The notes beneath the pieces are model-generated. The model made no database searches, had not been told where the DNA came from, and worked only from the letters and a program-made list of their open reading frames with translations. Positions 32,227 through 38,469 of a stretch of DNA of 64,000 nt are shown here, piece after piece. The position numbers and the translations under genes are program-made. This DNA comes from Rhodocaloribacter litoris (GTDB taxonomy: Bacteria; Bacteroidota; Rhodothermia; Rhodothermales; ISCAR-4553): contig NZ_CP076718.1 in NCBI RefSeq assembly GCF_011682235.2, positions 555,758 to 619,757 on the forward strand, read 5' to 3'. Each line of letters begins with the position of its first letter. Within the stretch, counting starts at the first letter, position 1.

Positions 32227-32610
32227 GGTTTTCCTCCTTTCGGTTTTGCCGTCATCCGTATCACGCCGGTTTCCGGCCCCGGCGTATTCTCTCTCAAAGC
32301 GGCACCGCCCGCCGGGTTCCTTGTTGCGATGGACAGGACTTCAGCCCGGCCCTCGCGGCGGCCGGCGGGACGCACCCGTGAACGAGAAGGCAGGCACAAA
32401 CCGAGTGGGGCGCACCCGTGAAGGGTGCGGCTACAGGATTGGGGGTTAAGACCGTAGCCGCGGGCTTTAGCCCGGGCCTCGCGGCGGCCGGCGGGACGCA
32501 CCCGTGAATGAGAAGGCAGGCGCAAACCGAGTAGAGCTCCTCCGGTCAGCCGCATAGACGGACCGTGAGTGTCCATGTTCTGCCCTTGACAAAGGGAGGC
32601 CATAAAGGGG
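32227..32610. other. Gene-free stretch at the left edge of the cassette block
   Basis: No supported gene. It holds the pair of 68-bp repeats at 32339-32532 (listed separately) and the decayed right end of the accessory block. Confidence 0.5.
32339..32532. repeat. Two 68-bp direct repeats with hairpins
   Basis: Positions 32339-32406 and 32465-32532 differ at four of 68 positions. Between them is a CGCACCC/GGGTGCG stem and an inverted pair GGCTAC (32430-32435) and GTAGCC. This resembles widespread intergenic repeats with a GGCTACA...GTAGCCGCGGGC core. Confidence 0.8.
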
Positions 32611-33003
32611 TTATATAGCCGTGTTGGAATAATCTTCTTTAAGTAGTTCTGGACGTTTATTGAGGTAATTAAAAAGCCAGGGCTTGAGCTGGTACCAAGT
32701 TGTCCTTTCGTTCGGTTTCTCTTCTTCCCGGACCGGCACCAACGCTCCTTCATCAATCAGGAACGGAAGGAATGCTTCGGCAGGATTAAGCCCCCCTCCG
32801 GTGATAGTCCAGCCAAAGAGCCGATCGTCCGAATTCGCTGCTGCACGATACATCCCGTTCAGAGCCAAGCGTCCTTCCCGAGGCAAATTTTCAAGACGCT
32901 GCTTGATGCGACGGCGGGATCGAAACCCCTTGAATGCTTTGCCAACCGCAGATAACGGCGTTTTGAGCAAGCTCGTCAGCCAACTAGGAAGCGCGAGATC
33001 CAT
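32611..33003 (-). CDS. Cassette-encoded hypothetical protein
   Basis: A 130-residue protein with an amphipathic N-terminus, a basic central region (KGFRSRRRIKQRLE) and a Trp-rich end (TWYQLKPWLFNYL). Not recognised; the tail resembles small superinfection-type proteins only in length and composition. It is visibly AT-richer than the chromosome and begins right after a GTTATAGGGC boundary, as expected of the next cassette in a CALIN-like array. Confidence 0.55.
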   Translation of the reverse strand: MDLALPSWLTSLLKTPLSAVGKAFKGFRSRRRIKQRLENLPREGRLALNGMYRAAANSDDRLFGWTITGGGLNPAEAFLPFLIDEGALVPVREEEKPNERTTWYQLKPWLFNYLNKRPELLKEDYSNTAI

Positions 33004-33040
33004 TTGGAGGATGGCACGGAAGCCCTATAACACTACGGAA

Positions 33041-33105
33041 GCCCTATAACGGCACTCGCGTCAGCGGCGGCGCGAAGCGCCGTCCGCTGCAAGCCATTGT
33101 TAGGC
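33041..33105 (-). other. attC-like recombination site
   Basis: Read on the minus strand, the site begins with GCCTAAC (33105-33099) at the stop codon of the preceding gene and ends at GTTATAGGGC (33050-33041). Internal arms CAGCGG and CCGCTG enclose a GGCGCTTCGCGCC stem. Its length of 65 bases and its fold are those of integron attC sites. A second copy of GTTATAGGGC lies at 33022-33031. Confidence 0.7.
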
Positions 33106-33899
33106 TATGTTACTTCTTCGATAGGAGTGAAGCGGTCACGACTATAAGCAACAAGATCTTCAGGTGGAACATCAGAATTGACACCAACGCGTAATACTAA
33201 CAAATAACGCGGCGCACCAAACCTGTCTTCATGTCCTTTTGCCATGGCTAAAGCACGCTGAGTGCGTTCCAATTCAAAGCCCAGAAGATACAAAAGCAAC
33301 TGTGTCGAAAACGGCTTTGAGAACTTGTACAATGATGCATCCCGCTTCCTTGTCACAAGAGCTAAATCCATGGGAACTGCAGCCGCAAATGTTTGTGGCA
33401 AACATTTCCATGGTCTCCAAGGATGGCAATAGTGCACTGGTTCATAATCATAGAGTAGCATAGAAGCTCTTGGAGCATGTTTTACGATGCGCCTAAGCTG
33501 ACTCACTCTAATAGCATCAAATTTCGCATTTTGATGATTTCGTTTCTTGGCTTCAAGAAAACCCACTCCTTCGACTCGGTCTCCGTCAGGATACTGTGTC
33601 AATACTAGAATAGCTATGTCTCCGAAAAAACGTTCCGGTGTGCCTGTTTGCTTGTAGGCGCTCCATTCAATATTTAAGATTGTTTCAGAAAGACGATTCC
33701 ATATCGGCCAACAAAAAGGTAGAGGATACCATTGCTCCATTTCGAAATAGTCGACATGGAGAGCGGTTTTTCTGATTCGGCGCAAGTCACGGAGAAGATC
33801 TCGGGTTACAAAGTCCTCGTCCCAGTCTATGGGGAAATTCCCATACACTCTCTTAGCCACGATTTCTTCAATCCGGAGAAGAAAATTCCACAGATCCAA
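33105..33899 (-). CDS. Cassette-encoded hypothetical protein
   Basis: A 264-residue AT-rich gene. The protein is neither membrane-bound nor secreted and reads as soluble alpha/beta, with a plausible PD-(D/E)XK-like segment (a GVGFLEAKKRNHQNAKFD stretch where E..K and upstream D could form a metal site). Not recognised as a family. It sits exactly between GTTAGGC at 33917-33923 and the attC at 33041-33105, as a gene cassette would. Confidence 0.6.
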   Translation of the reverse strand: MDLWNFLLRIEEIVAKRVYGNFPIDWDEDFVTRDLLRDLRRIRKTALHVDYFEMEQWYPLPFCWPIWNRLSETILNIEWSAYKQTGTPERFFGDIAILVLTQYPDGDRVEGVGFLEAKKRNHQNAKFDAIRVSQLRRIVKHAPRASMLLYDYEPVHYCHPWRPWKCLPQTFAAAVPMDLALVTRKRDASLYKFSKPFSTQLLLYLLGFELERTQRALAMAKGHEDRFGAPRYLLVLRVGVNSDVPPEDLVAYSRDRFTPIEEVT

Positions 33900-33947
33900 G
33901 ATGCCCTCCTGACGATGCCTAACATATTATTAACCCGCCAAGGGGCG

Positions 33948-34289
33948 TGTTACAACGCGCCCCTTGGCCATGTATCACCGACTTGACACGCCGGCAAAAT
34001 ATCTAAAAAATAAAAACATACACTCAGGGAATATCCGGTCATATACCGCCACGGGCCATATAACACCAACATATCTTACACATGTTGTCATGAAGCACCA
34101 TGAACCCGTCTTCGCCCCGGTTGCTCGATCGGCTTCGCCCCGTCTGCCGGACCCGCCACTACAAGATAACCACCCACAGCCCATAAATCCAGCAGAGCTC
34201 AATCCTTAAGCGCCACGACGACAAGCATTTCCTGCCCCAACGCGGGGCTTCACACGTGGGCGAATCCCTGCGCTTCCGGGCCGGGGGGC
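33948..34289 (-). repeat. Leader repeat A next to the cassette gene
   Basis: Block 34141-34289 matches 38147-38296 closely over ~150 bases, and 33948-33998 matches 38061-38110. The spacer between the blocks differs in length (142 versus 36 bases). Both copies lie just upstream of an AT-rich cassette gene reading leftward. It could be a cassette-array leader or an attachment region. A strong hairpin CCAAGGGGCG/CGCCCCTTGG spans 33938-33967. Confidence 0.7.
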
Positions 34290-35044
34290 GGTGCACCGGG
34301 CGCAACAGGCTCCGGCAGCCGGGACGCAGGCTCAAGCGTGAGCCGGGCGCCGGATCCCAGCACAGCTAGCTCTCGGTAGTCGCTTCGCTTGTGCAGTACT
34401 GCTCCGCTGAGGGCATCGACGTAGTAGATCCAGGCATCCGGGGGTGTTTCGCTGGAGAGCCGTAGCTTCCAGGCCAGGTGGAACTGCGCGTCGCCAGGAT
34501 AAACGACCAGTTCACCTGTCGATCCGTCCTGCAACGCGACGTCGTTGCCGAGATCCGATTGGGCAATGCGCAGCGCGGCAGCTTCGGTGAGCGCCGGGCG
34601 GGTCGGGGCCTGGATCGTGGGGTAATAGGTGCCGTTGGCCATGTCCACGCCGCCGTCCTCATGGATGTGCACGAGGTACTCGGCCCCTTCGACCGGCAGC
34701 CCCTGGTAGGTCTGTTGAAACTTGACGTGATGGATGCCGCGATGCGCCTGCGTACGAATGTGCGTTAGATCCGAAAGATCGGACCGCATCTTGAAGAGCT
34801 TATGATTCTCTTGGAGGAACGTCCGGGCCGCTTCAAGCGGGGTGCCCGTGAACGGCAGGGTCTTGCCCCAGAAGATCGAGGCAGGTGTGCCGGTGTGCTC
34901 GTTCCAGCGGATGTGCCAGGACGCCCCATGACGCGCGGTGAAGGCGTCCAGGGCGGCGCGTTGCGCGGTGTCGGGCTGAGGCTGGGCTGAGGCTGGAGCC
35001 AGCGCGAGGAAAGTCAACGTGAAGAAGAGTAGCAGTCGTTTCAT
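34250..35044 (-). CDS. Secreted FTP/PepSY propeptide protein, probably truncated metalloprotease
   Basis: A 264-residue protein with signal peptide (about 1-21, ending ASA/Q), then a fungalysin/thermolysin propeptide (FTP) motif region and a PepSY-like segment (EAAALRIAQSD, DAWIYYVDALSGAVL). In thermolysin-type proteases these precede a catalytic M4 domain with HExxH; here the frame ends inside leader repeat A with a Pro-rich tail and no catalytic domain. It could be a free inhibitor or chaperone, or the stump of an M4 peptidase whose 3' part was lost at the repeat. Start 35044 preferred over the frame's 35203. Confidence 0.75.
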   Translation of the reverse strand: MKRLLLFFTLTFLALAPASAQPQPDTAQRAALDAFTARHGASWHIRWNEHTGTPASIFWGKTLPFTGTPLEAARTFLQENHKLFKMRSDLSDLTHIRTQAHRGIHHVKFQQTYQGLPVEGAEYLVHIHEDGGVDMANGTYYPTIQAPTRPALTEAAALRIAQSDLGNDVALQDGSTGELVVYPGDAQFHLAWKLRLSSETPPDAWIYYVDALSGAVLHKRSDYRELAVLGSGARLTLEPASRLPEPVAPGAPPPGPEAQGFAHV

Positions 35045-35112
35045 GGGGTCTCTCTTGTCTGAGATATGAGGGAAAAGGGAAAGGGACAAACAGGTTGTCA
35101 GAAGAGCACCGT

Positions 35113-36126
35113 TTACTGTCTGGACCAGTCGGCAAAGAGAACCTCGTCGTCCTCTAACAGGCGCGTGATCTCCTCGCTCGCTACATCGACGAGGTAAAGA
35201 CAATGGCGCTCACGTCCTTTGTTTGAAATCACGAGCAACTCGCGCCCATCGGGAGACCAGGCCAGCGGAAAGAGACGTTCCCCAGCGATCGAGACGTCAA
35301 GAGGGACAATCGTCTCACAGGCCAGGTGAAACAGGTGCAATTCACCGCGCAGGGCAAAAGCAATCCATGCTCCATCCGGCGACCAGGAAGGGGAACTGGA
35401 CAAAGTGTTTTCAAAGGTCAGCCGTCGCTGCTTTTCCCCGTCGGCATCCATGAGGTAGAGTTCCTGGAAGAAATCCCCATCACCCTTTACAAAGTCCCGA
35501 TCCGAGACAAAGACGATCCGGCTTCCATCCGGCGACCACGCTGGTGTGCTATCCCTTGTAGGGTTGTTGGTTAGGGCCGTTACCTCATCTGTCCTGAAGT
35601 CGTACACCAGGACCTCCTGGTTTACGCCGCCGGCCTCACAGTTGAGGCAATGCGTGAAGGCGATCTTCGTCCCGTCGGGCGACCACGCCGGCCAAAAGCC
35701 CAGTTGCAGGAGCGGCTCGTCCTCGATCACACGCAGTACCTTCAAGGGCCGGATGTCCGTGCCGTCGGCCTTCATCAGGTAGAGCGGCGTGCCGGCGGTC
35801 GAACCCAGGCTGTCCGAGGTGAAGACGATCTGCTCTCCGTCGGGCGACCACCGGCCCGCGTCGACGAAATGATCCTTGAAGAAGGTCAACTGCCGGAGGG
35901 CTGAGCCGTCAGGATTCATCGTGTAGAGCTGCCAGGTGCCCGTGCGACGTGAGCTAAAGAGGATCCGGCCGGTCAGCGGGGCCTCCGGCTCCGCAGGACC
36001 GGTGAAACGCAGGTTCTCACAGGCATCCACCGGCGGATCGGGGTCGTCGCCGGGGGCTTGCGCATCGCAGCCTGCAAGGCCGGCCAGAAAAAGCCAGGCG
36101 CTCAGGAGAACCCATCGAGGTAGCAT
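35113..36126 (-). CDS. TolB-like beta-propeller lipoprotein
   Basis: A 337-residue protein with lipobox AGLAGC and five to six TolB/PD40 propeller repeats (SPDGEQIVF, SPDGTKIAF, SPDGSRIVF and similar). It is outside the cell membrane and may bind glycans or peptides. Its ATG lies just after the R' end of the attC at 36152-36274 with an AAGGAAG site, so it may itself be a mobile cassette, unusual for a lipoprotein of this length. The upstream split gene is in the same direction. Confidence 0.85.
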   Translation of the reverse strand: MLPRWVLLSAWLFLAGLAGCDAQAPGDDPDPPVDACENLRFTGPAEPEAPLTGRILFSSRRTGTWQLYTMNPDGSALRQLTFFKDHFVDAGRWSPDGEQIVFTSDSLGSTAGTPLYLMKADGTDIRPLKVLRVIEDEPLLQLGFWPAWSPDGTKIAFTHCLNCEAGGVNQEVLVYDFRTDEVTALTNNPTRDSTPAWSPDGSRIVFVSDRDFVKGDGDFFQELYLMDADGEKQRRLTFENTLSSSPSWSPDGAWIAFALRGELHLFHLACETIVPLDVSIAGERLFPLAWSPDGRELLVISNKGRERHCLYLVDVASEEITRLLEDDEVLFADWSRQ

Positions 36127-36151
36127 ATTTGCACTTCCTTTGAAGATTACG

Positions 36152-36274
36152 GCATATAACGGCGTAGCAAAAAGCGGCAGGCGCAGTATCGGCGGTCGGG
36201 GACATTAAAGGAAACACGGCGACCATGAGAGCGGTGCGATGGCGCGCCTGTCCGGCTTCATTGCCTGGTTATAC
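36152..36274 (-). other. attC-like recombination site, second
   Basis: On the minus strand it runs from GTATAAC (36274-36268) to GTTATATGC (36160-36152). The halves pair imperfectly: a CAGGC...GGCGC arm against GCGCC...GCCTG-like sequence, with a spacer of about 50 bases. Length 123 bases, within the attC range. It lies directly after the stop of the split cassette gene. Confidence 0.6.
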
Positions 36275-36686
36275 ATCCCTCATGCTTTGTCGAAATGAAG
36301 GCGCTTCTGGACAAGCTCCTCAATCTCAGACATGAGGGGTTTTGATGTCTCGACAAGTTCTTGATAAGGTTCGTGTGCGCGCCTGAGTAGATCAGCATCC
36401 GCTTCTTCGATCGCTTTCGTACTTAGGCGTGCATGTGCGCGCTTCATCACCTTCTGAAGACTCGAGAAGCGTTCAGCAATATCAGAGGTCAGGAATATCC
36501 GATTGTACTGCATGTAGTTATTGAAGTCCGCTAGCTTCTCAGCGGCCTTGTTTAGGCGAATCCAATATACTTTCTCTCGATAATACTGTGTCTTGTCTCG
36601 CTGATCTCGTAGCTCGACTTTCTGAAAATCATGGAGTTCGCAGTTTGCCAAGAATGCATCGAGTGCCGCGTTGGCATAGTTATCAA

Positions 36687-37691
36687 TGCGAATTAAGGGT
36701 AGAACGCGAGGATCCACATCGCCGCGGCTAGCCGCCCGAAGACGTGCACCAAGAGGCCCTCGAACGAACGCACCTTCGAGGCCACCTCGATGCCCGTCTT
36801 CTGCTCGATCCAATTGAACAGCGACTCGATCGGCTGCCGGCGCTGACTGACCCGCCGCGAGTACACCTTCTCGGTCAGCAGCACATCGGTCTGCCCCTTG
36901 CGCTTCTTCACCGGCGTGCACAGGTGCAGGTTCTGCTCGGCTGCCAGGCGCTCGCCTAGCTCACGGTCGGCGTAGATCTTATCGGCAAAGAGACGCCCCT
37001 CGTGCAGGCGCGGTAGGATCTGTCGGGCCACGGTCAGGTCATTGGCCGGGCCGGGAGCCAGTCCGATGTAGAGCGGCAGCGGCATCGTGCCGGGACGCCG
37101 CCGTGCGACGACATGTACCTTGACGCCGTAGAAATACAGGTTCTTCGAGGCGCAGAAGCCTTTGCCGGCGATGTGCGGAGCGACCCTGGCCCAGGCCGAG
37201 CGCTTCTGCTGGGCCATCACGACCGGAAAAGAGTCGATGATGTAATCGGTTGGTTCACCAGAGCGCTCTGCAGGTCGCTCACCAGAGGACTGGCGCGGAC
37301 ATGCCTCCAGGGCTGCTTCGACCAGCAGGGGGAAGGCATCGGCCAGCCGGTTGAGGCGCTGCACGAAGGCGACGTAGGAGGGCAGTTTGGGGAAGAAGGC
37401 CATCAGGTGGTCGCGGGTGTAGGCGTAGATGTCGGTCAGCGTGCGGCGCTGCTGCATGAGCCCGAAGAGGTAGACGGTGAGGACTTCTTCATCGGAGAAG
37501 GCCGGCGCGTGGTTGTTGCTCAGGCGCTGGGCAACGACGCAGAGGCGGCGCTGATACTGCTCACAGACGTGGAGGAACAGATGAATGAGCGTATATTGCC
37601 AGTCCATGGGGTCCTCGGGCGTTTGGTTGGAGGTGAGGGGTCATCTCCTTCTAAACGCTCAGGACACCATGGTGTCAACTCTTAATTCGCA
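36687..37691 (-). mobile_element. IS982-family insertion sequence
   Basis: The element is 1005 bp. Its ends are perfect 11-bp inverted repeats TGCGAATTAAG (left 36687-36697; complement at 37681-37691), with further partial matching inside. It is flanked by 7-bp target duplications TTATCAA (36680-36686 and 37692-37698). Size and single transposase gene fit IS982. The intact ends and duplications argue for recent insertion. Confidence 0.92.
36693..37607 (-). CDS. IS982-family transposase
   Basis: A 304-residue DDE transposase of the IS982/DDE_Tnp_1 type. It has the N-terminal FSDEEVLTVYLFG block, DSFPVVM with the first Asp, GVKVHVV, ADKIYAD with the second acidic position, and the R-x-x-IE-SLFNWIEQ final block with the Glu. 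The gene fills most of the IS and is full length, so the element may still move. Confidence 0.9.
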   Translation of the reverse strand: MDWQYTLIHLFLHVCEQYQRRLCVVAQRLSNNHAPAFSDEEVLTVYLFGLMQQRRTLTDIYAYTRDHLMAFFPKLPSYVAFVQRLNRLADAFPLLVEAALEACPRQSSGERPAERSGEPTDYIIDSFPVVMAQQKRSAWARVAPHIAGKGFCASKNLYFYGVKVHVVARRRPGTMPLPLYIGLAPGPANDLTVARQILPRLHEGRLFADKIYADRELGERLAAEQNLHLCTPVKKRKGQTDVLLTEKVYSRRVSQRRQPIESLFNWIEQKTGIEVASKVRSFEGLLVHVFGRLAAAMWILAFYP

Positions 37692-38060
37692 TTATCAAGA
37701 TCCGGGTAGCTCTGCAGAGGATGAGTAATGCCGGCGAAGAATTCATAGGCGTCTAAAAGCTTCCTCCAAGCAGTTGACAAAACTTCGAACTCCTTGTCGT
37801 GAACCTTGCTGACTCGGCTGAATCGAGCGTTTATATCGTATCGAACCTCTTCGAGAATCTCAGTCTGCTTGCGTTTGAATTCCTCCAAGCGTTCTGCGAA
37901 CTTTTGGTCTATCCACTTCTGCCCGATAAATTTCAGCAGACCATACGCGATCGCTGTGGCGCCACCGCCCACAAGCACAATCTGACCCAACAGCTGCAGG
38001 ATAGTATCCATCTACTTTGATCGTCTGGTGGGATACCCTATTATTCACTCACCCCGGCTC

Positions 38061-38296
38061 TGTTACACACGCCCCATGGCCATGTATCCCCGGCCTGACA
38101 CGCCGGCAAATCACGGAACAGTCAAGGGCTTCCGCCAGGTTAGTTCCGTCTGCCGGACCCGGCACTACAAGATAACCACCCACAGCCCCACAAATCCAGC
38201 ATAACGCAACCCTTAAGCGCCCCGCCGTCCAGCATTTCCTATCACAGCGTGGGGCTTCACACGTGGGCGAATCCCTGCGCTTCCGGGCCGGGGGGC
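38061..38296 (-). repeat. Leader repeat B next to the split cassette gene
   Basis: Counterpart of 33948-34289. Blocks 38061-38110 and 38147-38296 match those of copy A in order and orientation. It lies just upstream of the leftward cassette gene at 38011 and about 170 bases upstream of the rightward BNR-repeat gene. Confidence 0.7.
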
Positions 38297-38469
38297 TCGG
38301 GGGGTGGCCCGCCTGGAACACACGGCCACCCCAAGATCCGTCACGGGTCCCTCCCCCCCGGCCTTTTGCCTTTGTCCGTGCCACGCCGGATTTTGGCCCC
38401 GGCGCGTCTTTGCCCGGCGCAGCCGGGCGCGCTGTGTCCTTCCCCACCCGTTCATCCCGCTTGTCCGCC
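38297..38469. other. Gap upstream of the BNR-repeat exoprotein
   Basis: No gene; an in-frame extension of the downstream protein is open but has no signal peptide and shadow-like composition. It should contain that gene's promoter. Confidence 0.4.

Follow-up and report, generated by a model that had tools for sequence, protein, structure and literature searches.

A probable tandem pair of decayed integrons in the chromosome of Rhodocaloribacter litoris

A 64,000-nucleotide stretch of the Rhodocaloribacter litoris chromosome (contig NZ_CP076718.1, positions 555758-619757; hereafter, the window) contains a row of compact genes and sites resembling attC, the recombination sites that end integron cassettes. 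Our analysis indicates that this region is most probably a tandem pair of decayed integrons, lying on the minus strand and invaded by insertion sequence (IS) elements. Its features are of a known kind, that of decayed integrons, but their form is unusual: the platforms stand in tandem, several attI sites without an integrase gene (intI) are conserved, and one intact integrase is present in the genome. The region was read on both strands, and the search space consisted of the chromosome, which is one contig of 4,502,320 bases, and of further genomes of the order, as many as 113 of them. Positions in Table 1 are counted within the window.

attC sites and the remnants of two platforms

The original prediction placed two attC-like sites with typical box ends in this region, and both were found there, on the minus strand, by covariance scores and arm pairing. 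Two covariance models were used, and the window sites were left out of each: R1, made from 50 attC located beside integron integrases of many phyla or elsewhere in the R. litoris genome, and R2, a lineage model made from 20 attC. With R1, a search of 184 kb gave attC1 43.3 bits (E 5e-7; E 1.7e-7 when the window was searched with no filters), which is the level reached by the attC of the intact integron of this genome, and with R2 it scored 46.3 bits. It has the R'' and R' boxes, the paired arms and the structure score of an attC, and is proved to be a genuine one. The outcome on which the prediction was to be given up, no significant score at either site, did not occur. The second site, attC2, reached 21.5 bits with R2 (E 0.0043), the next best match in 124 kb scoring 12.8 bits, and its combined box and arm-pairing score was equalled once when the 1.8 kb around it was shuffled 2000 times. 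It is likely to be a degenerate attC. By single-strand folding taken by itself (z of -2.3 and -2.8 versus -0.7), only attC1 stood apart from shuffles. The predicted GTTAGGC boundary is present at 33099-33105; it is, however, the R'' end on the cassette (minus) strand, and GTTATAG(GGC) is the R' end. Scanning by motif only was abandoned in favor of the covariance models, as it gave attC1 a score of 15.9, within the shuffle range, and ranked it among chance matches. The whole-genome attC search scored 150 of 9561 candidates, and the number of attC found in the genome is therefore a lower bound. An Rfam scan returned two tRNAs and nothing more.

At two places, referred to here as platforms A and B, the DNA is homologous to the part of the intact integron that comprises attI and the 5' region of intI (33935-34300 at A, 76% identical over 357 bp, and 38067-38300 at B). 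The window also contains a repeat, with copies at 33955-34289 and 38067-38296, that matches the DNA on either side of the intact intI start. Platforms A and B are 89% identical to each other over 151 bp, and their homology to intI begins at nearly the same point of that gene. At both of them the intI stub is read divergently to the cassettes, as in the intact integron, and it is from this common layout that we recognize two decayed integrons in tandem. What is left of intI is its 5' part only: at A, 28 residues are followed by a stop, versus MNPSSPRLLDQVRSVCRTRHYSISTERAY in the intact gene. An attI adjoins intI as in complete integrons, attI A lying beside its intI remnant and attI B being degenerate. 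Both stubs bear the marks of a pseudo-integron, namely a premature stop, truncation and no codon bias at A, and truncation with loss of the start at B.

The region had been described as a cluster of attC sites lacking integron integrases (CALIN), and in part this holds: a real attC and cassettes are present, and the window has no intact integrase gene. By the CALIN rule of IntegronFinder, two or more attC and no intI (PMC9024848), the region formally qualifies if attC2 is accepted. The name is nevertheless misleading, as attI sites and intI 5' remnants at two places make the older platform visible. The proposed search for an integrase elsewhere in the genome was successful. An intact intI is located at 3197356-3198294 on the minus strand (456 bits against a cut-off of 265), about 2.6 Mb from the window, and is followed by four attC.

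On this reading, each platform would once have comprised an intI on the plus strand, an attI and a row of cassettes running the other way. The sequence itself shows that little more than the first 64 or so codons is left of either intI gene, that a cassette gene was split by an IS982-like element and the last attC by an IS110/IS1111-type element, and that one attC has degenerated. The cassettes may have been captured at the two attI by IntI, which the local genes would have supplied initially and the intact intI at 3.198 Mb, acting in trans, afterwards, if capture then still took place.

Table 1. Features of the integron region, with their positions in the window
Feature	Position	Strand	Remarks
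Direct repeat, left copy	32244-32284	n/a	41 bp; 80% identical to right copy
Third attC R'' (ATATAAC) joined to IS110/IS1111-type end	32578-32616	minus	behind gene B; rest of both lost
Cassette gene B	32611-33003	minus	130 aa; no Pfam/NCBIfam family match
attC1	33044-33105	minus	R'' GCCTAAC 33105-33099, R' GTTATAG 33050-33044
Cassette gene A	33105-33899	minus	GC 44.4%; encodes 264 aa; first cassette after attI A
Platform A attI	33917-33977	minus	core GTTAGGC 33923-33917; 56/61 bases as in intact attI
Platform A eroded Pc-like promoter	34163-34191	minus	TGGATT-17-TATCTT; intact copy TGGACA-17-TATACT
Platform A intI 5' remnant	34100-34290	plus	28 residues, then stop 34184-34186; intI homology ends near codon 64
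Truncated peptidase propeptide gene (FTP/PepSY)	34290-35044	minus	3' part lost at junction with platform A intI remnant
Lipoprotein gene	35113-36126	minus	TolB/PD40-type beta-propeller; starts 28 bp past attC2
attC2	36154-36274	minus	long, degenerate; R'' GTATAAC 36274-36268, R' GTTATAT 36160-36154
Cassette gene C, 3' part	36280-36699	minus	ends 6 bp short of attC2
IS982-like insertion	36690-37680	minus	transposase 36693-37607; splits gene C
Cassette gene C, 5' part	37682-38011	minus	interrupted; starts 20 bp past attI B; no Pfam/NCBIfam match
Platform B attI	38031-38093	minus	degenerate, core GGTATCC
Platform B intI 5' remnant	38137-38296	plus	truncated near codon 64, start codon deleted; 89% identical to A remnant
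Direct repeat, right copy	38364-38404	n/a	41 bp; both copies flank whole region

attI conservation and the integron copies of the lineage

The attI of platform A has kept more of its bases than the DNA next to it: it is 92% identical (56/61) to the attI of the intact integron, versus 71% (228/323) for the intI stub and the intergenic DNA (Fisher p 1.7e-4). The same was observed in a further copy at 2595 kb of the chromosome, with 52 of 61 attI bases identical versus 90/161 elsewhere (p 2e-5), and among ten attI copies, taken from two genomes, conservation was highest in the 60 bp that immediately precede the crossover point. In the stub of copy A, substitutions relative to the intact intI were spread evenly over codon positions 1, 2 and 3 (19, 22 and 19 of 67 each), indicating that the stub has been under no coding constraint. 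Most of the divergence thus seems to have arisen after intI was lost, attI having been held back meanwhile. This suggests that attI A remained in use, or under other selection, after the loss of its own integrase, perhaps with the intact IntI at 3.198 Mb acting on it in trans. We also considered that the stubs had been kept for the promoter Pc, whose position within intI is known from class 1 integrons. Both the 3.198-Mb copy and a relative from another family (G034) have an intact Pc, but in A and B it has eroded at the background rate, so its retention does not explain the window stubs, and the idea found no support there.

Besides the window and the intact locus at 3198 kb, at least four more copies of the attI region occur, at 1409, 1412, 2569 and 2595 kb, some of them together with part of intI; with the window pair included, the chromosome carries six intI-less attI copies and one intact integron. 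The 1409- and 1412-kb copies likewise stand in tandem, and attC sites occur both between the two and behind them. A second relative of the integrase, at 2.84 Mb, is broken and was matched in pieces, and solitary attC with no known attI nearby occur at 1841235 (44.3 bits) and 2271160 (38.2 bits). One intact intI together with six intI-less attI, some of them in tandem pairs, is directly relevant to the ways in which platforms multiply and to the question whether a single integrase could serve several docking sites, and the presence of intact and decayed attI in one cell provides natural material for testing which attI bases matter.

Further copies occur in G034, including a 94% identical head that carries an internal deletion in its intI; in the stack at 1762-1785 kb of that genome, one intI internal-deletion junction holds a GTTAGGC box. 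The intI genes of three other genomes (G066, G065 and G073) have in common a short frame-breaking insertion after STQNQALNAL, both parts being otherwise intact. The four stubs, the G034 deletion and the insertions in other genera could speak for a hot spot of breakage near intI codons 64-75, but the independent events are too few for a claim of mechanism. In the order as a whole, intI scored above the NCBIfam cut-off in 41 of the 114 genomes, and with E < 1e-30 in 53 of them, and the search of genome contigs with IntI returned relatives in many phyla, the best of them 66% identical. The original prediction regarded integron cassettes as seldom described in this lineage. This is true of the literature that we found, which names only the complete integron of Salinibacter ruber M1 in Bacteroidetes proper (PMC9024848), but integrases are common here; the lineage has frequent integrons that have hardly been described. 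By its description, the S. ruber integron resembles the present ones in having intI and an attC array in a Bacteroidetes-type genome, and differs from the window copies in that these are broken, their intact counterpart being 2.6 Mb away.

Flanking repeats, a possible spread of platforms and alternative explanations

The usual view of a chromosomal integron is that of a sedentary platform whose cassettes are mobile. The repeats around the present ones suggest that integrons may integrate as units beside genes and duplicate the target, a reading that we keep as a lead. On one side of the intact integron lies the 3' end of an EttA-type ABC-F gene, and on the other side this end recurs (3210550-3210619), with 89% identity over 70 bp to the G034 sequence that served as the query. 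In the integron stack of G034, EttA-type 3'-end fragments lie directly behind attC at three places, and the DNA past the last such copy is the same in G034 and in R. litoris. The window region is flanked by the 41-bp direct repeat of Table 1, of which 209 kb of R. litoris DNA contains these two copies only; the right copy is 90% conserved upstream of the orthologous BNR/sortilin gene in another relative (G018). When the flanking repeat was sought elsewhere with a 71-bp query, even the second copy already known was missed, and no count was based on that search. The comparison with relatives provided no empty site: a left-flank gene was found in none of five relatives, and the one that does carry the right-flank orthologue has a different neighbor beside it. 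In this lineage the platform itself might spread, in units consisting of a target-gene end, intI, attI and attC-ended cassettes that would integrate beside chromosomal genes, stack in tandem and leave direct repeats of the target (the EttA-type 3' end in two genomes, the 41-bp repeat around the window region), the leftover intI-less attI becoming satellite docking sites for one intact IntI. As a whole, we consider this scheme improbable.

Several points weigh against the tandem pair of decayed integrons, or against the continued use of its attI sites. With the general model R1, attC2 scored 13.8 bits (E 0.5), which is not significant. No attC was found behind the lipoprotein gene, so that 36126-34290 is only partly cassette-like. 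The attI of platform B, with 45/59 identical bases versus 139/215 (p 0.06) and a degenerate core, shows no clear constraint. Conservation of attI could also stem from an overlapping promoter or leader, or from conversion between attI copies, and the use of attI in trans is something that we infer from sequence.

The two platforms need not stem from two integrations. One decayed platform may have been duplicated in tandem by unequal crossing-over after its intI was truncated, and the close likeness of A and B, which begin at nearly the same point of intI, and the similar pair at 1409/1412 kb fit such an event, which we regard as nearly an even possibility. Against it, the cassettes behind A and B are unrelated, and in G034 separate units are stacked at one site, each bounded by an EttA-type 3'-end copy, so that repeated integration is possible too. 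More doubtful is the view of a single distributed integron in which every attI copy is a functional satellite platform and the one intact IntI acts on all of them in trans. The conservation of attI beside a decaying stub, the different first cassette behind each attI and the single intact intI would agree with this, but the cores of attI B and of the 2569-kb copy are poor, and the Pc of both A and B is eroded.

It is also conceivable that there was never a platform here, and that the distant IntI put single cassettes into ordinary attG-like chromosomal sites. Off-target insertion of this kind has been proposed to give rise to CALIN (PMC8618304), and the genome has both an intact IntI and solitary attC, at 1841 and 2271 kb. 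However, attI and intI 5' remnants accompany the cassettes at two places in the normal integron orientation, which makes this explanation very unlikely for the region; it could survive for 36126-34290 only. That the attC are chance look-alikes in GC-rich DNA, as the motif-only score of attC1 and the weakness of attC2 with the general model might suggest, is refuted for attC1 and hardly credible at all, given the covariance score of attC1, the lineage-model score of attC2, and the attI and intI remnants.

Comparison with known systems, insertion sequences and cassette genes

Decayed integrons have precedents. In the survey of Nemergut et al. (2008), about a third of intI genes were pseudogenes, some of them arising by duplication within a genome, and other phyla are known to have pseudo-integrons as well as genomes with several intI (PMC2426708). 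In Xanthomonas, CALIN occur away from the main locus (PMC12444791). The window resembles these pseudo-integrons (PMC2426708; Xanthomonas, PMC12444791) in having decayed intI beside cassettes. Unlike in them, intI is mostly gone at several loci while attI persists, tandem pairs are present, and six intI-less attI accompany one intact integron. There is also a likeness to the Delta-attI type cassettes of class 1 and 2 integrons, in which a short piece of attI replaces attC in the cassette (PMC12901181): in both, parts of attI occur away from the normal intI-attI head, but here whole attI regions recur together with part of intI.

Two insertion sequences have damaged the region. The 304-aa transposase of the IS982-like element is also present in the 1.41-Mb array (L012 9797-10711), and hence in two integron arrays of the genome. 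Of the IS110/IS1111-type element, about 32 bp of one end are left in the window. The 33-bp end motif occurs only four times in the 114 genomes of the order (in two genomes), each time directly after an R'' box behind a cassette gene; at two of the other sites an IS110/IS116-type transposase adjoins it (Transposase_20 match, 1.1e-12), and at a related locus (L215 14831-14965, 23.8 bits) attC resumes behind the IS. The motif had been considered as the right end of an integron island because of its location at distal array ends, but it proved to be an IS110/IS1111-type end within attC. The mark of the IS1111-attC group, an IS110/IS1111 transposase at one attC end, was thus found at related loci, and the putative element behind gene B fits this group. 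The present elements resemble IS1111-attC insertion sequences (Tetu and Holmes 2008, cited in PMC11187229) in the IS110/IS116-type transposase and in insertion at one attC end directly behind a cassette gene. They differ in that there are only four cases in the 114 genomes of the order, in two genomes, the assignment resting on transposase and insertion position.

Compact AT-rich genes had been predicted between the sites. Genes A, B and C, with a GC content of 44-51% versus 66.7% for the window, agree with this, gene A being the lowest of 633 windows, but the lipoprotein gene (60.6%) does not. This last gene does start close behind a site, as predicted, though at 36126, since 35113 is its end. 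Gene A begins 18 bp past attI A and ends at attC1, which is the layout of a first cassette. Its distant relative (31%) is located on a Vibrio plasmid. A DIAILV...GVGFLEAKKR stretch in its product recalls PD-(D/E)XK nucleases, with no family match, and a structure predicted from the single sequence was discarded at a predicted local distance difference test (pLDDT) score of 33.

Near the distal end of the array, an 83-bp GC-rich repeat (32336-32418 and 32462-32544, 88% identical) is possibly a repetitive extragenic palindromic (REP)-like element. In the other arrays of the genome, the cassettes of the intact integron (3197.2-3210.6 kb) encode an AbiJ-like protein and proteins with type IX secretion-like C-terminal tails, and a cassette of the 1.41-Mb array carries a MazF-like toxin gene (L012 11932-12255).

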